Shown here in pieces: positions 11,073-64,000 of a stretch of DNA of 64,000 nucleotides. Position 1 is the first letter of the stretch; each line of letters starts with the position of its first letter. The stretch covers positions 62,001-126,000 of the forward strand of contig SUVP01000007.1 of NCBI GenBank assembly GCA_015061945.1, given 5' to 3'. The stretch is from Opitutales bacterium (GTDB lineage: Bacteria > Verrucomicrobiota > Verrucomicrobiia > Opitutales > Intestinicryptomonadaceae). The notes beneath the pieces were generated by a model. It saw only the letters and a program-made list of their open reading frames with translations, did not search any database and had not been told where the DNA came from. A program made the position numbers and the translations under genes.

Positions 11073-11969
11073 TTATTTGCGTCTGCGATAGATTGCCAAA
11101 GCAAGTGCAATCCCGCCAAAAATCATCGCCCATTCGGCTGGCTCTGGAACTGCAACTGCAAGCACATATCCATTCACACCATCAACAGTTGCTTGCTCAA
11201 GTGAATAATCGCTTAAATCAGCACCAGTGATTGTAATTGTCTTTTTAAGCGTTTCGCCATCGTAAAATGATACTGCATATTTATCTACCCCTAAGTCGCT
11301 AAAAGTAAGCATACATTCTGTTTTATCAATCATAGATGATAAAAAGATTGAATTTGTTTCTGTAAAATCAACAAGTTTTAAATTAAAGCTATTATTATTA
11401 CCATACCCCATAACATTGAGATCTACATTTTTTGAAAAACCCAATGTTGCAATTTTATCTGTATTTGCAGCAAATATGTAATTATATGCACCAGCACCAT
11501 ACATATTCAATTTTCCATCATAATAGAAAAATATCTGTGCATAATCAGATTTAACTGGATTGAAACCGTCAGGATTATAAACATTTATTACAGAATTTGT
11601 TGCAGTTATCGTAATTTTATCTTCGTACAACTTACCGCCATCTTCAATTGTTATAGTTGCAGCACCTGCCCACGCACCCAAACTGAGAGTATTTTGTTTA
11701 TTACTCTCCGCAGATAAATTTGAGTTCATTCTCAACACACCTGTCGAACCAATTGTAATTGCCTTCTTCGCAACTTTAATAGCATACTGCGATACGCCCG
11801 AATCAAAAGTTAGAGATCCATTTATGATAATGTCTGAGTCTTGAACAAGCCATTCAGCAGATGATATTGCTGTTTCACCGGAAGCAATATTGACGGGAGT
11901 ATCGGCTTGTATTTGAGCAAAAGCTGAAACACTAAATAAAGATAATAAGATTGGAATAAACTTTTTCAT
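11073..11969 (-). CDS. PEP-CTERM surface protein, beta-helix-like
   Basis: A 298-residue exported protein: signal peptide MKKFIPILLSLFSVSAFAQ, a body rich in short beta-strand segments and Asn/Gly turns, and a C-terminal VPEPAEWA tail with a hydrophobic stretch ending YRRRK. The tail is a PEP-CTERM sorting signal, which an exosortase recognises to process and release or anchor the protein at the outer surface. The ATG at 11969 begins the signal peptide; the longer frame to 12008 is not supported. It sits between GH97 genes, with terminators on both sides, so it is probably transcribed alone. Ligand unknown. Confidence 0.85.
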   Translation of the reverse strand: MKKFIPILLSLFSVSAFAQIQADTPVNIASGETAISSAEWLVQDSDIIINGSLTFDSGVSQYAIKVAKKAITIGSTGVLRMNSNLSAESNKQNTLSLGAWAGAATITIEDGGKLYEDKITITATNSVINVYNPDGFNPVKSDYAQIFFYYDGKLNMYGAGAYNYIFAANTDKIATLGFSKNVDLNVMGYGNNNSFNLKLVDFTETNSIFLSSMIDKTECMLTFSDLGVDKYAVSFYDGETLKKTITITGADLSDYSLEQATVDGVNGYVLAVAVPEPAEWAMIFGGIALALAIYRRRK

Positions 11970-12031
11970 ACGACATATATGAAAAACAAAACCCCAACAA
12001 TTTGTCAATAATATAATAGCGTAATCACAAA

Positions 12032-33666: not shown

Positions 33667-34161
33667 GTGTCGATGAATTATCAAGTAACAGTTATCCGCC
33701 ACCCTCGTGAGAACCTGAAAAAATGTTCCTTACGCCACTTGCACGAACATCCAAATTTCACGTTCCACAAGGCGATTGACGGCTTTTCGTTCGACGCCAC
33801 AGGCTTCACATTGCTCGAGATAGACGCTCCGCCTATTTCAATAGAAGATGCAAATCGCCCTATACTTTTGCTCGATTCCACATGGCATTTGCTCCCCAAA
33901 GTCAGAGCAAAAGTTTATGGAAATTTTGTTCCACGAAGTCTACCGCCATCGATTTTAACAGCATATCCACGCATCTCAAAAATGCACGACGACCCTAATG
34001 GACTCGCAACAATAGAAGCACTCTACTCTGCACTCCGTGCGATTGCCTCGCCCGATGTCTCTATTTTAAAAGACTATTGCTTCGCAAAAAAATTTCTCGA
34101 AATAAACGGATGGCAAAACGATGCTCCCGCAAATTTTTTCGACGGCACACTGCAAGTTTAA
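33667..34161 (+). CDS. Tsr3/DUF367-like putative rRNA aminocarboxypropyltransferase
   Basis: A 164-residue protein from GTG 33667 (ATG 33673 also possible). Its order of motifs fits the Tsr3/DUF367 family: a KKCSLRHL segment (residues 18-25) like the family's CSGKKL, LLLDSTW (67-73) like the conserved LDCSW, then PRSLPPSILTAYPRISKMHD and GLATIEALYSAL, and a closing CFAKKFLEINGW. Tsr3 transfers a 3-amino-3-carboxypropyl group from SAM to a pseudouridine in archaeal and eukaryotic small-subunit rRNA. It diverges from lysS and its stop overlaps the NamZ stop by four bases. The bacterial role is unknown. Confidence 0.65.
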   Translation: MSMNYQVTVIRHPRENLKKCSLRHLHEHPNFTFHKAIDGFSFDATGFTLLEIDAPPISIEDANRPILLLDSTWHLLPKVRAKVYGNFVPRSLPPSILTAYPRISKMHDDPNGLATIEALYSALRAIASPDVSILKDYCFAKKFLEINGWQNDAPANFFDGTLQV

Positions 34162-35444
34162 TTTCCGTACAAATAATATTTAGAACTCGCTTTTTTGAAT
34201 TCTTGTGCTTGGCGAGACCACTTGTCTACATAATACTTCACATTTGCATTTGCACCTTTTGTAGAAATTTCTCGCCACCATTCTTGCGAGCCGACGTGTT
34301 TATTAAATAGTGAAATCTGATTTTTCCCAGCTCGAGCAAAAACGTTGCCACCATTAAATTTGCACGTTGCTTTCATCATATAAAAACTCAATTCTGTCGG
34401 GCGAAGTGAATTCCAATCAGAAATGCCGACATATAGCCCGTCGACACGTTTCCCCTTTGAATCTTTTGCAACAACAGCTCTATATGAGACTCCACGTATT
34501 CCATACGAACGCAACTCCGCCGCAATTTGCGATGGCGATTTTGACGGGAATGTAAGCAACCTAAATGGATACGTTGTGCCATACCCATGTTTAAATCCAC
34601 CTATTTGACAGCCAAGTCCTGTCATCGCATAACCGACAGCCGATGCAAAACTCGGTACTGCGGGGCTTGTTGGCACCCAACGCAAACCAGTGTCGCTCCA
34701 GAGCATCGAACGCTTCCAACCTCTCATTGGTATGACTGTTAATTTTCCACGTTTTTGTTGTTTTGATGTTATTTCCATTGCTCCGTATGTAGCCTTTGCA
34801 AAACGTGCAAGTTCGCCTATTGTCAAGCCATGGACGTATGGAACACGGAACATACCGACATAACTTTTATATTGCATATCGAGCATAGGACCATCGACTT
34901 TTAACCCACCAAGTGGATTAGGTCTATCTAAAATCATCAATTCTTTTCCGTTCTCAAAACACGCTTCAGCCGCACGGAGCATACAACTTTTGAACGTATA
35001 CGAACGCGAGCCAACGCTTTGCAAATCGACAACTAACACATCTATTTTCTTAAGCATTTCAGGCGTCGGCTTGCGATACTTCCCATAAAGCGAGTAGACA
35101 GGTAAACCTGTGCGTTTATCAATTTTATCGAAAACGGGAACATCGGCTTTTTCGTTGCCATAAATGCCATGCTCCGGACCAAACAATGCTACAAGGCGTA
35201 CATTTCTCGCACGACGCAAAACGTCAACCGTACTTACACCATATCGATTTACCCCAGCAGGATGAGTCAACAGACCGACACGCTTGCCTTTTAGTGGGGC
35301 AAAATTCATAGCTTCGAGAACGTCGATACCCAACATCACGCGTGGAGTTGTCGACGTTTTTTGTGCAAACACACAATTAGAAAAAGCCCCAACGCCTATC
35401 GACAGAATCAAAAACAATCGCAAAATTTTTATAAAAATGTACAT
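34158..35444 (-). CDS. Exo-beta-N-acetylmuramidase NamZ-type protein (DUF1343)
   Basis: A 428-residue exported protein; start at 35444 gives MYIFIKILRLFLILSIGVGA as signal peptide. DUF1343 landmarks are GKRVGLLTHPAGVNRYG, VALFGPEHGIYG, VDLQSVGSRSYTF, MILDRPNPLGG and VPYVHGLTIGELA. DUF1343 proteins are exo-muramidases releasing MurNAc from peptidoglycan fragments in recycling. It follows the B12 locus by 44 bases in the same direction, and may or may not be part of that transcript. Confidence 0.85.
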   Translation of the reverse strand: MYIFIKILRLFLILSIGVGAFSNCVFAQKTSTTPRVMLGIDVLEAMNFAPLKGKRVGLLTHPAGVNRYGVSTVDVLRRARNVRLVALFGPEHGIYGNEKADVPVFDKIDKRTGLPVYSLYGKYRKPTPEMLKKIDVLVVDLQSVGSRSYTFKSCMLRAAEACFENGKELMILDRPNPLGGLKVDGPMLDMQYKSYVGMFRVPYVHGLTIGELARFAKATYGAMEITSKQQKRGKLTVIPMRGWKRSMLWSDTGLRWVPTSPAVPSFASAVGYAMTGLGCQIGGFKHGYGTTYPFRLLTFPSKSPSQIAAELRSYGIRGVSYRAVVAKDSKGKRVDGLYVGISDWNSLRPTELSFYMMKATCKFNGGNVFARAGKNQISLFNKHVGSQEWWREISTKGANANVKYYVDKWSRQAQEFKKASSKYYLYGN

Positions 35445-35488: not shown

Positions 35489-36394
35489 TTATTTTCTTTT
35501 TCTATATATCGCAAATGACAATGCGATTACTCCCAAAATAATGGCGTAAGTAGAAGGTTCTGGAACGCTACTTGTAGACGCTATATTCATCACCGCTATG
35601 CCTTGCAAATCAAATCCGCCACTACCATAAGTCAAATGTGGGTCGTAAATTTCATAACCATCGCTACCATAACAAGAGCCATCGCCGATTATATCAATCA
35701 CACGCACATACGCAACGTTGTCCAAGTCCAAATATTGATAATTTGCCAAGAAATCGTTGCAATATTCTTCGGTAAATTCGCAATCGCTACTTATGATGTA
35801 ATTGTATGCGTATTCGAGTTCTCCTAAATCAAAACAATGCCCATAATCGACCATATATTTTGATGCCAAGTTGTATATCAACGAACCTGCGTGTTGCCCA
35901 TACGCACTAATTGTTGACGCTCCCAAATAGAAGTTCGGGAAACGCACAAAATGGTTGCCGTCGGACGACACTTCTACATACGCAAGCTCCCAAAATCCCA
36001 TACCAGCTGGCGACCCTTCGTCTGCGACAATATTAGAATTTTCAAAGACAGCAAAATCGAAACCTGTACCGTTTTTTATTCCGCTTGAAAACGTCATTGT
36101 GATACTTCCGCCATTACCCAAAACTACTACATCAAAGTTATCCGCTTGCACCGCACCGATTGCTTTTTCTGGAGTTTGCCATTGTGCGTCGACAGCATAA
36201 CCGACATTGTAATTTTCGTAACCAGTCGCCCACGCTTTAATCGACGAGTTTTGGTAATGAATAGATACATCGCCCGACAACCCGATTGGCTCGCCATTTG
36301 CAAAACTCAACGTTTCATTTTGAGGCAGATATTGCGATGCAAACAAAGCACCAGCAAACGTTATACTCGATAATATTGTTATACTTTTTTTCAT
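35489..36394 (-). CDS. PEP-CTERM surface protein of the cobalamin locus
   Basis: A 301-residue exported protein with signal peptide MKKSITILSSITFAGALFA, a globular body and a PEP-CTERM tail (SVPEPSTYAIILG, ending YRKRK). Body motifs are NGTGFDFAVFENSN, ELAYVEVSSDGNHFVRFPN and YGSGGFDLQGIAV, which I associate with cell-surface proteins found beside B12-regulated receptors. The ATG overlaps the stop of the btuB-like gene (ATGA), so the two are translated together. Surface cobalamin binding is an inference from position, not from a recognised ligand site. Confidence 0.8.
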   Translation of the reverse strand: MKKSITILSSITFAGALFASQYLPQNETLSFANGEPIGLSGDVSIHYQNSSIKAWATGYENYNVGYAVDAQWQTPEKAIGAVQADNFDVVVLGNGGSITMTFSSGIKNGTGFDFAVFENSNIVADEGSPAGMGFWELAYVEVSSDGNHFVRFPNFYLGASTISAYGQHAGSLIYNLASKYMVDYGHCFDLGELEYAYNYIISSDCEFTEEYCNDFLANYQYLDLDNVAYVRVIDIIGDGSCYGSDGYEIYDPHLTYGSGGFDLQGIAVMNIASTSSVPEPSTYAIILGVIALSFAIYRKRK

Positions 36395-38394
36395 AATTTT
36401 ATATTGATTCCTATTTTTAAAACTCTACCTATGCTGGGATAATAACTACCTGCATAACCGTACGAAGCGTAGTTTTCGTCAGTAGCATTTTCTATCGCAC
36501 CATAGATTGTAAAATATTTTGTGGGATTTATATTCACTTGAAAATCCAACGTGTAATACGATGGAATACCACGCATAGTGTTATCGTAATCATTACCCAT
36601 TACACTGTTTGAAAAATATGTTGCCCGAGCAAGCACTGTGATGTACTCAATCGGCTTAACATATACTTGGAATGTTCCGTTGAATTTGGCTACAAGTGGC
36701 ACATCGCAACCATCGTATTTTCCGGCTAAAAACTTTGCTCTCACAAAAGTGCCAAAGAGCGACGCACCCCAATATTTTGAATCATAACCACCGCCAAAAT
36801 CCACGCCATAACGCAAAGTTGGGTCGAGGTTTACATTCAATTTTTGCGTATCATCCCAAGATATTTCATTTTGCAAGTGCATAACAAAACCGTTTATTGA
36901 AGCGTTCCAATTTTTGTTTTTTAGTTTGTAGCCAACTTCATAATTCTGTCCGTGTTCTGCTTCTAAATCGGTATTAAATGGCTTTGCAGATGACGATTGA
37001 TAATATGCAATTTCATCAGTTGTCGGATAGTGGAAAATTTGGTCAAAGCGAGCATAGAGCGATTGCTCATCTGTCAATTTGTATGTTATGCCAGCATCAC
37101 CACTCATACCCATATCCCAGACGGAATCGTCATAATCGCCGTCCTTTGTAATAACGGGATTTCTTCGCCCGACGAGAGAATACGTCGACCATTTTGCACC
37201 AGTATAAGCCGTGTCTGCACGCATCCCGCCCGACAAAATAATGTCGTCGGCAATATCATAAGTTGCACCGATATACCCACCAATATCAAAACGCTCAACA
37301 TCAGCCTGACGATTAGAAAATTTCATATCAAAACGCTGTGCATACGAAAATTCATCGAGCGTAATTGTCGAAAAATTTGTATCAATCCCAGCAAAAATCG
37401 ACATATCTTCTATCGATGTTATTTCAATGCGTGGTGAAAAAGAATAAGTCCATTGGTCGTTGTATTTTGGGAAGATTGCACCGTCGTCATAAATTTTTCT
37501 ATCTCGAAAACGCACACCTGTTGTAAGGTCGAACGACGCACTGTCGCTTGCAGAATTTAAGTTTGCAGTGTACAAGCCCGTCTTATCTTTAAACGCCATA
37601 TTTGCAGTGCCTGCGTATCGTGGATTTTCTCGAAATGTCTGCCAATCGAGTGCGTTGGGATATTCTACCGACGATTCGCAATAATCGCCTTTCAATGTAA
37701 TTGAAGTAGTTTCGGTTATATCATAACCACACATTAAACTCGCATAGTTCGACCACGCTTCAGAAAAATCTCTGTATCCGTCTGTATTATAACACGACAC
37801 ACTTGCAGAAAAATACGCATCGCCTTCTCTGCCTGAAATTCTCGCATCGGTATTGTACAAGCCATACGAACCATACATTCCATTTGCAAAACAATCGTAC
37901 CCTTCTTCTTGTTTTATCGTCGAAATTTTTATTACACCAGCTTCGGCATTTCCGCCATACATCGTACTTTGCGAGCCTCTCAAAACCTCTATACTTTCGA
38001 CATTTGCAAGCGGAATGGTCGACCAATTTATCCCAGCCATATCGGCAGGATTATACTTCACACCATCAACTAAAACTAATATTCGTGTCTGCGATTGCTC
38101 TCCAAAACCACGCATCGCAAGATTGCCATCAGAAAATCCACCTGTATACGACATAAAGCGAACATTCGCTTTTTTCATCAACACTTCTGGAATTGTTGAC
38201 GACACACTGTCTTCAATTTCTTGGCGATTTAAAACCTGAGAATTTACTGGGACATTAAGCTCGTTCATCGCAAATCTGTACGCTGTAATTTCGACAGAAT
38301 CCAACTCTTGCGAGCCTTCCGCAATATCCTCATTCGAGTATACAAAGTTGTACGCAAATAGACTGAACAAAACGTAAAATAATTTTGTTTTCAT
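36391..38394 (-). CDS. btuB: BtuB-like TonB-dependent cobalamin receptor
   Basis: A 667-residue outer-membrane receptor. Signal peptide MKTKLFYVLFSLFAYNFVYS; a TonB-box-like LDSVEITAYRF (residues about 32-42); plug domain with ILVLVDGVKYNPADMAG and VLRGSQSTMYGGNAEAGVI; and a 22-strand barrel ending in VLKIGINIKL. BtuB takes up cobalamin across the outer membrane with energy from TonB. The start at 38394 is preferred over 38427, which precedes the signal peptide. Assignment to cobalamin rather than another ligand rests mainly on the riboswitch upstream of its operon. Confidence 0.85.
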   Translation of the reverse strand: MKTKLFYVLFSLFAYNFVYSNEDIAEGSQELDSVEITAYRFAMNELNVPVNSQVLNRQEIEDSVSSTIPEVLMKKANVRFMSYTGGFSDGNLAMRGFGEQSQTRILVLVDGVKYNPADMAGINWSTIPLANVESIEVLRGSQSTMYGGNAEAGVIKISTIKQEEGYDCFANGMYGSYGLYNTDARISGREGDAYFSASVSCYNTDGYRDFSEAWSNYASLMCGYDITETTSITLKGDYCESSVEYPNALDWQTFRENPRYAGTANMAFKDKTGLYTANLNSASDSASFDLTTGVRFRDRKIYDDGAIFPKYNDQWTYSFSPRIEITSIEDMSIFAGIDTNFSTITLDEFSYAQRFDMKFSNRQADVERFDIGGYIGATYDIADDIILSGGMRADTAYTGAKWSTYSLVGRRNPVITKDGDYDDSVWDMGMSGDAGITYKLTDEQSLYARFDQIFHYPTTDEIAYYQSSSAKPFNTDLEAEHGQNYEVGYKLKNKNWNASINGFVMHLQNEISWDDTQKLNVNLDPTLRYGVDFGGGYDSKYWGASLFGTFVRAKFLAGKYDGCDVPLVAKFNGTFQVYVKPIEYITVLARATYFSNSVMGNDYDNTMRGIPSYYTLDFQVNINPTKYFTIYGAIENATDENYASYGYAGSYYPSIGRVLKIGINIKL

Positions 38395-38403
38395 AGTAAA
38401 ATT

Positions 38404-38437
38404 GCGTTGCCACAAGCTATTTTGCAAATGGCAACGC
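38404..38437. other. RNA hairpin between PEP-CTERM gene and btuB
   Basis: A perfect 9-bp stem (GCGTTGCCA / TGGCAACGC) with a 16-base loop sits ten bases before the btuB start, in the minus-strand message. It is not followed by a T-run on the minus strand, so it is not a plain terminator for the operon. It covers the ribosome-entry region, and could act in RNA processing or translation control. Confidence 0.7.
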
Positions 38438-38447
38438 TTTTAAAAAA

Positions 38448-39434
38448 TTATTTACGATTTCTTCTTACAAACACAGCAATGAGTGCAACTGCACCAAAGA
38501 TTGTCGCCCACTCTGCTGGCTCTGGAACTGCAGTACTTGCATATCTAACGTTGTCAATTGCAACATACGCTGGGACTGTCAAACCATAGTTGTCTGCAAT
38601 ATTACTTATCACTTGAAAAGCTAAACCATTAACTGCGTTGCCTCCATTTAATGAAGAAAGCGATACCGTTTCCCAACCTTCTTGAATGTATTTTACCCCA
38701 TCAATATTTTCGCCAAGCATTACATCAACATAGCTGTCTGTAAGGACATTGTCTGTTCCAATACCATATATACGAACTGCATAGAATTGACCTGCGTTGT
38801 CGAGCGTTTTGTCCGAAGATACAAAGCTATCACCACCAGTCATCGAGCGATATGTGTACATCGTCAATGCGATATCAATCGAAGTAAGATTGAGCGACTC
38901 TCCCATAAGGAAAGATACTGCCGAAACATCGGAAAATTCAGTGTAAGAGCCGTTATAAGTCTTACCATTGATAACAAAATCTTTTGGAGATGGTACACCT
39001 GTTTCCCATGAACCCATCATATCGAAAGTCATTATCACGCCAAAATTCGAGCTTGCGTTTGCTCCGCCACCAACTTGTGTTTTGCCGTCATACGCTTTTG
39101 TGTCGGCACTACTACCTGTGATTGAATTGTCAGGTGCATTAGAAATAAATCCACCATAATTTCTCCCTGGAGCAGTTAAACTACCGACAACTCCTGTTGA
39201 AGAAGTTGTTTGCGATGTGAAGCCTGTGCCAGGAACCATTTGCCAAGTATTCGTATCGTAGGTATAACCCCAACCGTTGTTCTCAAGTACGGCAGTCCCA
39301 CTGTTTGTGATATGAGTACTCGCTGAAACAGATTCAAAATCGAATACGCCTGCGTTAGCATTTAGTGTTGATATTGCAAGTGTTGCCAATGCGAGACTGG
39401 CAAACTTTGTATAGTTTGTTGTATTGTATTTCAT
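38448..39434 (-). CDS. DUF4465-like PEP-CTERM protein, first gene of the cobalamin operon
   Basis: A 328-residue exported protein. Signal peptide near residues 10-28 (FASLALATLAISTLNANA), a jellyroll-like body, and a VPEPAEWATIFGAV tail ending FVRRNRK. The body resembles DUF4465: FDFESVSAS at the start, NYGGFISNAPD, VDVMLGENIDG, GWETVSLSSLNGG and TVPAYVAIDNVRYA. DUF4465 proteins occur in B12-regulated loci of Bacteroidetes, where they are lipoproteins; here the anchor is PEP-CTERM. A GGAAAG lies about nine bases before the ATG. A cobalamin riboswitch lies upstream. Confidence 0.8.
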   Translation of the reverse strand: MKYNTTNYTKFASLALATLAISTLNANAGVFDFESVSASTHITNSGTAVLENNGWGYTYDTNTWQMVPGTGFTSQTTSSTGVVGSLTAPGRNYGGFISNAPDNSITGSSADTKAYDGKTQVGGGANASSNFGVIMTFDMMGSWETGVPSPKDFVINGKTYNGSYTEFSDVSAVSFLMGESLNLTSIDIALTMYTYRSMTGGDSFVSSDKTLDNAGQFYAVRIYGIGTDNVLTDSYVDVMLGENIDGVKYIQEGWETVSLSSLNGGNAVNGLAFQVISNIADNYGLTVPAYVAIDNVRYASTAVPEPAEWATIFGAVALIAVFVRRNRK

Positions 39435-39654
39435 TGTTGTTTTCTTTCCGATTTCTGCGAAGCAGATTAGATTTAACTCGGTAAAGAAAACATTGCCCTA
39501 CACAATGCTGTCGATAATGCGAACTTTGAAAACGAAAGAAAAAAGCTCGCCATTAAAAACTGCACAATTTTCACACGCCGACAAAAAAACGATAAAACGA
39601 CATACAAAAATCTGTACAGTGCCCTGTCTTCTTTACTCGAGAATTAAAGGACCA

Positions 39655-39800
39655 TTCGTATACACACGTCTTCTGGCTTATTCTGTTTAAGTTGAACTTA
39701 AAACGATGCACCTTCCCATCTTTTCGACAGTGGCAAATTACATCTTCAGAAAATTACAGCGGCGAGACCGCACCTGAATTTCACAGGATTTCCGTTTGTG
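39655..39800 (-). promoter_or_regulatory. Cobalamin (B12) riboswitch
   Basis: On the minus strand the leader carries the class-defining elements in the right order: GGAAATCC then GGTGCGGTC (39766-39774), GCCACTG (39728-39734), GGGAAGGTG (39709-39717) and the B12-box AGCCAGAAGAC (39668-39678). It lies about 230 bases upstream of the DUF4465 gene. The expression platform in 39440-39655 is not resolved; a T-rich stretch follows near 39590. High cobalamin should shut the operon down. Confidence 0.93.
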
Positions 39801-39914
39801 TACGAACACTTAAAATTGATAAAAATCAATCTCTATCCAAAGAACAATTTTTCGCGATTATTTGATGTTAAAAATTTTTGTCAAGCGATTTTCAAAAAAT
39901 TTTTCAGCGTGTAA

Positions 39915-62507: not shown

Positions 62508-64000
62508 TTACTTTCTTCTTCTGTATATTGCCAAGCCGAGTGCGATAGCTCCAAAGATGACTGCCCATTCTGCTGGTTCTGGCACTGCTACTGCATTGAG
62601 CCAGAAACCTTTTGAAGTACCGTAAGTACCTGCTACAAATTCAAGCTCGTCTGCTTTATCAGCTTTGATTGTGTAATTGCTATTTAGTTTGAACGTATCT
62701 GCTTCGGTCTTAACAAATATTCTTTCGTTTTCAAAGTTTTCTATATTGATAGTCAATTTTGCACTATCAGATGTAATAGCCGTAAAGATAATTACATCAT
62801 CTTTTGAATTCGATAATACCAAGTCTAAATCAGCCGATACCGTTTCTCCACCATAAACACGGAGATTTGCACATTTTACAATAGCATTTACATTTATTTT
62901 GTTGTTATTACCTGTAATGAGAATGTTTGAATGTTCATATTTTTTACCATCTTCACCAAAACGTGTAATAGCGTTATCCTTGTTAAATGTAACTGTTGCA
63001 TCACCAGAAAGCATAAGTCTGCCTTCATAAAGATTTTTTGTTCCATTCGCCGCTGTATGCGTTCTATCGCGAAGAAGAATATCGCCACAATCTGCGTCAA
63101 TTGTCAATGAAGTAGAGTTTACTTCAATAGCACCTGTGATATCTACAGTTGCACCATCACTAAAAGTAGAACCATTTGTACCAACTAATATAATGCGTCC
63201 GTTTGAACCTGATTGCAAATCGTTTGCAGTCAAAGAGCCTTTCAAATTGAGATTTGAAAATGTCCCTTTTACCCCAGTGTAAACCAACGAACCGTCAATA
63301 TTCATCGTCGCACCATTTATATCCTTTACAGTCTCAAGCACACCACCCGATTTAACATTCACTATTGAACCAGAATCCATTGTTATATTTGCCGATGAAT
63401 TATTGAATTGAAGTGTGCCTCCAGTATTAACATTGATAGTCGAATCAGAATAGGCAGTCATACTCGCTGAATATTTAAGAACTGCACCATCGTTTACATC
63501 AAGGTGTGCTCTTGCTGCCATATAGATAATTCCTGATGTATATTCAACAGTACTGTCCTTGTCTACGATAAAGAAATTGCTACCGCCACCAGAGTTCGAC
63601 AATGATACTTGTCCCAATACTTTTGCGTTTGTAGCAAATCTAAAACCAGCCGACTGATTAGCATTATTTGTGATAAATCTTACTTGGGTTCCAAAATTAA
63701 CTTTTGCAATAGTTTTATCTGTTGCACTCTCGTTAGAATTTTTAATTAAGATTTCACCGATTCTCCACTGGATTTTTCTACCAGAATTATTGAATGCCAT
63801 AACTTCACCTTCAACAGATGAATTTATATCAATTGTTGTTCCATAAGCAAAATCCCATTGCGATCCTGCAGGTGCATTTGTTGAAGAATCAAGAGATGTA
63901 ATTACAATTTCACCATCACCACCATCAAAGCGGTCGCCAGTGCCACTCTTCAGTACGTTGTCGTAGCCAGCTACTAACTGCGTACGTCCTTCCGAAGCAC
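62508..64000 (-). CDS. Large PEP-CTERM beta-helix-like protein, N-terminus outside window
   Basis: The reverse frame is open from the stop at 62508 to the end of the window, so the 5' end is missing. The ATG at 63800 is not the real start: codons beyond it read on with the same composition (e.g. GDGEIVITSLDSSTNAPAG). The body is a repetitive adhesin/autotransporter-like sequence of short Asn-, Gly- and Ser-rich beta turns, such as GTLQFNNSSANITMDSGSIV. The C-terminus is VPEPAEWAVIFGAIALGLAI then YRRRK, a PEP-CTERM tail. Function unknown. Confidence 0.85.
   Translation of the reverse strand, partial: ASEGRTQLVAGYDNVLKSGTGDRFDGGDGEIVITSLDSSTNAPAGSQWDFAYGTTIDINSSVEGEVMAFNNSGRKIQWRIGEILIKNSNESATDKTIAKVNFGTQVRFITNNANQSAGFRFATNAKVLGQVSLSNSGGGSNFFIVDKDSTVEYTSGIIYMAARAHLDVNDGAVLKYSASMTAYSDSTINVNTGGTLQFNNSSANITMDSGSIVNVKSGGVLETVKDINGATMNIDGSLVYTGVKGTFSNLNLKGSLTANDLQSGSNGRIILVGTNGSTFSDGATVDITGAIEVNSTSLTIDADCGDILLRDRTHTAANGTKNLYEGRLMLSGDATVTFNKDNAITRFGEDGKKYEHSNILITGNNNKINVNAIVKCANLRVYGGETVSADLDLVLSNSKDDVIIFTAITSDSAKLTINIENFENERIFVKTEADTFKLNSNYTIKADKADELEFVAGTYGTSKGFWLNAVAVPEPAEWAVIFGAIALGLAIYRRRK

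Follow-up and report, generated by a model that had tools for sequence, protein, structure and literature searches.

A putative cobalamin (B12) scavenging operon was found in a 64,000-nucleotide stretch of DNA from an Opitutales bacterium (GCA_015061945.1, contig SUVP01000007.1, forward strand positions 62,001-126,000). This whole stretch is called the window here, and coordinates are counted from its first letter; the host genome is 2.5 Mb and 97% complete. On the minus strand, a promoter-like site, a cobalamin riboswitch, a DUF4465 gene, a TonB-dependent receptor gene and a BtuH-like gene follow each other in this order. From the protein families and folds of the three genes, the operon therefore reads btuJ-btuB-btuH. 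It is very probably a cobalamin-repressed scavenging operon similar to those of Bacteroides, in which an exosortase route would replace the lipid anchor of the binding proteins; cobalamin binding, repression and protein location are predicted from the sequences.

The riboswitch aptamer (39646-39835, minus strand) was detected in a covariance search with RF00174 at 64.1 bits, above the gathering score of 31.5 (E = 1.5e-13), which bears out an earlier note on this DNA that placed a B12 riboswitch ahead of the operon. The DUF4465 gene (38448-39434) encodes 328 amino acids, the receptor gene (36391-38394) 667 and the BtuH-like gene (35489-36394) 301, all on the minus strand. The last two overlap by ATGA, the start of the third gene with the receptor stop, as the earlier note had also described. 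The same note proposed a cobalamin capture system that uses exosortase instead of lipid sorting. This proposal fits the riboswitch, the B12-binding family of the first protein, the BtuH fold of the third, the receptors, the exosortases, the probable scavenging lifestyle and the conservation of the riboswitch-linked module across phyla.

The DUF4465 and BtuH-like proteins

The first protein has a signal peptide and matches DUF4465 (PF14717) with 65.6 bits against a cut-off of 25. In Bacteroides thetaiotaomicron this family goes by the name BtuJ, and two of its members there have very tight cobalamin binding (PMC12751083). Work from 2026 demonstrated that eight divergent members, two of them from Verrucomicrobia, bind B12 (PMC13398666). 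Single-protein phmmer searches of the PDB with the first and third proteins gave no convincing relative; profile searches succeeded. The profile of the first protein, built from the window protein and 14 relatives of the same class, matched the solved DUF4465 structures, with 9HMU from Coraliomargarita as the best (E = 2.4e-58) and BtuJ1 of B. thetaiotaomicron (9FCT) at E = 1.1e-36. In BtuJ1, Tyr146 and Tyr245 of the DE helix and the HI loop contact the corrin side chains (PMC12751083), and their equivalents are retained in the window protein as Y193 and Y290.

The earlier note had described the third protein simply as a second PEP-CTERM protein. Its tail does pass the TIGR02595 model; more than that, the protein has a BtuH fold. 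Apart from the tail, no Pfam family was found by the Pfam search. A profile of 18 sequences matched one solved chain, the BtuGH protein of B. thetaiotaomicron (8BLW chain B), in its BtuH part (373-480; E = 9.2e-5); the match of a broader profile to the same chain was weaker (E = 0.06). An AlphaFold model was made from 62 sequences (predicted local distance difference test, pLDDT, 88.8; predicted template modelling score 0.88), and a single-sequence fold with a pLDDT of 31 was not used. In the Foldseek search, 8blw_B was the best match of the model and the sole one under 0.001. VIA-align placed BtuH2 (7biz) first with Z 12.0 over 161 residues, and 8blw second with Z 11.4 over 176; the next matches were CBM32/discoidin-like and other folds, with Z 8.8 and below.

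In BtuH2, Asn399 contacts the phosphate of B12 and Phe401 the lower ligand (PMC8941943). Direct alignment of BtuGH and BtuH2 showed a motif GNAF ending at chain index 301; if its F is Phe401, then its N would be Asn399, a numbering taken from the N-x-F spacing. By profile alignment, the counterpart of Asn399 in the third protein is Asn119, which is invariant in 62/62 sequences. The fold and the invariant asparagine together are the best evidence for reading the third gene as btuH.

The third protein might instead be a carbohydrate- or matrix-binding module of the CBM32/discoidin type, which tethers or places the receptor complex and does not bind B12. CBM32/discoidin domains indeed come next after the two BtuH structures (Z 8 to 8.8), and BtuK2 and BtuL, from equivalent loci of B. 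thetaiotaomicron, do not bind cobalamin (PMC12751083). However, the BtuH structures are first by a clear margin and the phosphate-contact asparagine is invariant; moreover, a cobalamin or adenosylcobalamin riboswitch lies on the module strand in 27/35 scanned BtuH-like loci. The tether is thus considered unlikely. Identity as a plain sugar-binding module was rejected on the same ranking of structures.

Weak similarity was also seen between the family of the third protein and LIC_13355 (NF033170), in 10/18 members (best E = 9.7e-5; 18.7 against a cut-off of 120). Elsewhere in the window, two minus-strand proteins (11073-12008 and 62508-63800) are weakly similar to the BtuH-like or DUF4465 queries. 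The former ends in a PEP-CTERM-like tail, which misses the Pfam cut-off and exceeds that of TIGR02595 (G000:C10:73076).

The receptor and the B12 economy of the host

The receptor between the two binding proteins was called BtuB-like in the earlier note. The TonB plug and beta-barrel domains are clear matches and the riboswitch context agrees with this name; the cut-offs of the BtuB equivalog models are not reached, and so the assignment comes from genomic context. The receptor would work like BtuB, while not being an equivalog of the Escherichia coli type.

Import of another ligand, such as a siderophore, pyrroloquinoline quinone or haem, with the riboswitch nearby only incidentally, was also considered. 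The top NCBIfam score of the receptor is a generic siderophore-receptor subfamily, and the top phmmer match in the PDB is PqqU/YncD; but all these family scores are below their cut-offs, and the neighbours of the receptor are B12-binding families. The whole genome encodes two plug-domain receptors only, and each is directly behind a cobalamin riboswitch. Another ligand therefore seems very improbable, and identity as a siderophore receptor was rejected because both plug-domain receptors follow cobalamin riboswitches.

Three cobalamin riboswitches were found in the genome, ahead of the window operon, the second receptor and nrdDG. The B12-dependent enzymes MetH and NrdJ are encoded, and the import genes elsewhere in the genome include a BtuC-like permease with its ATPase (BtuCD) and one periplasmic binding protein. 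CbiC, the sole biosynthesis gene searched for, was not found in this 97% complete genome. Since MetH, NrdJ and BtuCD are present and CbiC is absent, the host is probably a cobamide scavenger and not a B12 maker. The riboswitch ahead of nrdDG (L005, 6025-8593) precedes an anaerobic ribonucleotide reductase; as NrdJ is also encoded, B12 would here turn off the B12-independent enzyme.

C-terminal tails and exosortases

Exosortase tails on both surface proteins had been claimed in the earlier note, and this holds fully for one of them. The tail of the BtuH-like protein, VPEPSTYAIILGVIALSFAIYRKRK (35492-35569, minus strand), scores 20.8 bits with TIGR02595, over the cut-off of 16. The tail of the DUF4465 protein, VPEPAEWATIFGAVALIAVFVRRNRK (38451-38528, minus strand), has the three expected parts (a PEP motif, a hydrophobic stretch and a basic end) and stands at the same position in all sampled relatives (15/15 aligned proteins), but reaches only 10.7 bits against the hidden Markov model cut-off of 20.7. 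The signal peptides of both proteins contain no cysteine and no lipobox, and so the two do not look like lipoproteins. The genome encodes three exosortases, the best with 134.6 bits, and the likely catalytic Cys and Arg motifs were seen in their translations. About 54 proteins of the genome carry PEP-CTERM tails over the cut-off. PEP-CTERM is thus the ordinary export tail of this lineage, and only next to Bacteroides does the exosortase route stand out.

PEP-CTERM proteins may be anchored, matrix-held or released. It is therefore conceivable, with odds somewhat below even, that the same genes serve the same ligand in another way: the binders would be released, or held in exopolysaccharide, as protein 'cobalophores' that return B12 to the receptor. 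PEP-CTERM tails presumably undergo cleavage. ZepA, a PEP-CTERM protein of zinc uptake, was detected in the exoproteome, and a siderophore-like role was suggested for it (PMC10957091); BtuJ of B. thetaiotaomicron acts on released vesicles (PMC12751083). In addition, a cyclic di-GMP (c-di-GMP) riboswitch between the cobalamin riboswitch and the DUF4465 gene in two deltaproteobacterial loci hints at biofilm control. A surface-anchored form, however, fits the tail equally well.

Ligands or functions are known for only a few of the many PEP-CTERM proteins, and little is understood of their fate once exosortase has cut them. A pair of cargo proteins whose predicted ligand is coloured and tightly bound, together with a vitamin-repressed promoter, would offer a clean readout of exosortase sorting.

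Proposed mechanism

In the preferred model of a Bacteroides-like scavenging operon with exosortase-sorted binders, low intracellular cobalamin would let the riboswitch leave the leader open, probably exposing the ribosome-binding site of the first gene. Two binders of different folds, a BtuJ jellyroll of the DUF4465 family and a CBM32/discoidin-like BtuH, would then pass the inner membrane via Sec. Exosortase would remove their C-terminal PEP-CTERM tails, and the tails suggest that the binders reach the exterior of the outer membrane or the matrix. There they may catch cobamides for delivery to the TonB-dependent receptor whose gene lies between theirs. The periplasmic binding protein and BtuCD are expected to finish the import, supplying MetH and NrdJ.

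Several observations speak against this model. The DUF4465 protein is divergent, with 24-31% identity to the other sampled members, and BtuJ1 Tyr97, Asn241 and Thr242 are replaced by Ile97, Thr286 and Val287, where the placement of Ile97 falls in a loosely aligned first region; three of the five conserved B12-contact residues are thus missing. These three contacts are common to BtuJ1 and BtuJ2 (PMC12751083) and are not a requirement of the family. B12 binding by the first protein could be weaker because of these changes and the divergence, and is rated as likely but not certain. In the third protein, Asn399 is the one BtuH2 contact with a mapped counterpart, among contacts that also include Tyr510, Trp511, Trp577, His476 and Gln333. 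The receptor is far under the BtuB equivalog cut-offs (TIGR01779, 115.4 against 599.7; NF007926, 68.6 against 836). The BtuH-like protein of close relatives often has no PEP-CTERM tail (L045, L046, L049, L050), and the final place of the two cleaved binders is predicted solely from their tails.

Distribution among relatives and phyla

Among 286 genomes of the same class, DUF4465 was found in 16. All 16 class proteins (the 15 aligned and L032) have a PEP-CTERM-like tail; most of their genes have a BtuH-like neighbour, and many have a receptor nearby. BtuH-like genes were scanned in 85,000 species genomes with a query alignment of seven rows, which gave more than 500 loci; the best 80 were analysed. 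These loci were picked by similarity to the window protein, and hence their counts describe this set and not all genomes. They span Verrucomicrobiota, Kiritimatiellota, Planctomycetota, Beta-, Gamma- and Deltaproteobacteria, Bacteroidota, Cyanobacteria and others; the nearest named relatives of the host genome in the scans are Opitutales of the ruminant gut. Within about 7 kb of the BtuH-like gene, DUF4465 occurs in 46/80 loci and a receptor in 45/80. The 35 loci scanned for riboswitches, 27 of them positive, belong to this set of 80.

A simple motif rule counted PEP-CTERM-like tails on all BtuH-like proteins of Betaproteobacteria (13/13) and Gammaproteobacteria (6/6), on 6/21 of Verrucomicrobiota and on 0/7 of Kiritimatiellota. 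The three Bacteroidota proteins have C-terminal tails judged by eye to resemble sorting domains of the type IX secretion system (T9SS). The double PEP-CTERM arrangement is frequent and not universal. BtuH was described from gut Bacteroidetes with a few homologs in Firmicutes (PMC8941943). The scan extends its range to Verrucomicrobiota, Planctomycetota, Proteobacteria and others, and a family without a Pfam entry gains a likely function.

A wider hypothesis, which we rate as close to an even chance and slightly under it, is that exosortase-processed BtuJ and BtuH make up a B12 trap, either extracellular or held in the matrix, that feeds BtuB in Proteobacteria and in the Planctomycetota-Verrucomicrobiota-Chlamydiota (PVC) group. 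The binding domains would be fitted to the export route of each phylum: Bacteroides would use a lipid anchor and other Bacteroidota a T9SS-like tail, PVC and Proteobacteria would rely on PEP-CTERM, and Planctomycetota on fusion into very large proteins. Some lineages might also place the trap under c-di-GMP control.

Further features were observed at these loci. In two deltaproteobacterial loci (L067, 5417-6108; L068, 3228-3765), a cobalamin riboswitch and then one for c-di-GMP-I immediately precede the DUF4465 and BtuH-like genes, and joint control of B12 capture by the vitamin and a biofilm signal is possible there. In PVC, a recurring protein of about 260 amino acids adjoins the BtuJ/BtuH genes (L027, L029, L034, L036, L040 and many others); its N-terminal motif is of the pseudopilin type, and it ends in YGG..LGWFGP..NNGYWNP. 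Propeller-like PEP-CTERM proteins, possible counterparts of BtuG, occur in the B12 loci L036 (10847-12697), L040 (11298-12380), L047, L059 and L090. In Planctomycetota (L077, L096, L103, L105, L113, L115, L123), DUF4465 domains are found inside proteins of about 900-2000 residues at BtuH-like loci.

Leader, hairpins and downstream gene

Just upstream of the riboswitch, a sigma-70-like promoter (TTGACA-16-AATAAT; 39857-39884, minus strand) matches the consensus at 11/12 positions; the call is a consensus match alone, and the regional match total is not above that of shuffled sequences. Between the aptamer and the first gene, a hairpin (39441-39489, minus strand) was predicted in the segment 39435-39560 (z = -3.7). 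The likely ribosome-binding site of the first gene, GGAAAG (39444-39449), lies in the 3' arm of this hairpin; regulation at the level of translation is thereby suggested, with the hairpin as the candidate expression platform.

The interval between the first gene and the receptor gene contains a 10-bp hairpin (38404-38437, minus strand; -21 kcal/mol, z = -4.0), and an alternative TTG start of the receptor lies upstream at 38427. The hairpin is possibly a partial terminator or a stabiliser of an mRNA 3' end, and may raise the amount of the first binder over that of the receptor. Close downstream of the BtuH-like gene is a minus-strand gene for a NamZ-type exo-beta-N-acetylmuramidase (34158-35444); co-transcription is possible.

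Comparison with known systems

B12 binding by DUF4465 and BtuH, BtuB loci run by riboswitches and zinc capture by a PEP-CTERM protein are already known. The exosortase-type tails on binders for B12 uptake seem new here, in that no paper joining PEP-CTERM or exosortase with DUF4465 or B12 uptake was found in open-access PMC, which is no proof of absence. One paper reportedly names both PEP-CTERM and a cobalamin riboswitch; it concerns a denitrifying reactor community.

The cobamide loci of B. thetaiotaomicron (PMC8941943, PMC12751083, PMC10404256) likewise combine a cobalamin riboswitch, a BtuB-type receptor, and BtuH-fold and DUF4465 proteins. Their accessory proteins are lipoproteins, which for BtuJ is a trait of the Bacteroides members and not of the whole family; the binders of the window operon carry a PEP-CTERM tail (BtuH-like) and a PEP-CTERM-like tail (DUF4465), without a lipobox. 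The window operon also lacks a BtuG propeller, and the genes for BtuCD and the binding protein lie at other places in the host genome. The LIC_13355 family, which is weakly similar to the BtuH-like family, is also described as a lipoprotein (NF033170).

The DUF4465 proteins of Coraliomargarita (D5EK51/9HMU) and Haloferula belong to the same family and phylum as the window protein and bind B12 by experiment (PMC13398666); the window protein diverges further and lacks three contact residues. The report of these proteins does not mention PEP-CTERM or exosortase. The 9HMU construct ends at VVPE, within a likely VPEP motif, so it was likely trimmed at the PEP motif, and a tail on D5EK51 is suggested by this construct end.

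ZepA (PMC10957091), a close precedent, is also an extracellular PEP-CTERM protein that catches a scarce nutrient, and TonB-dependent transporters are among its gene neighbours; however, it differs from the window binders in its fold, its ligand (zinc) and its regulator (Zur).

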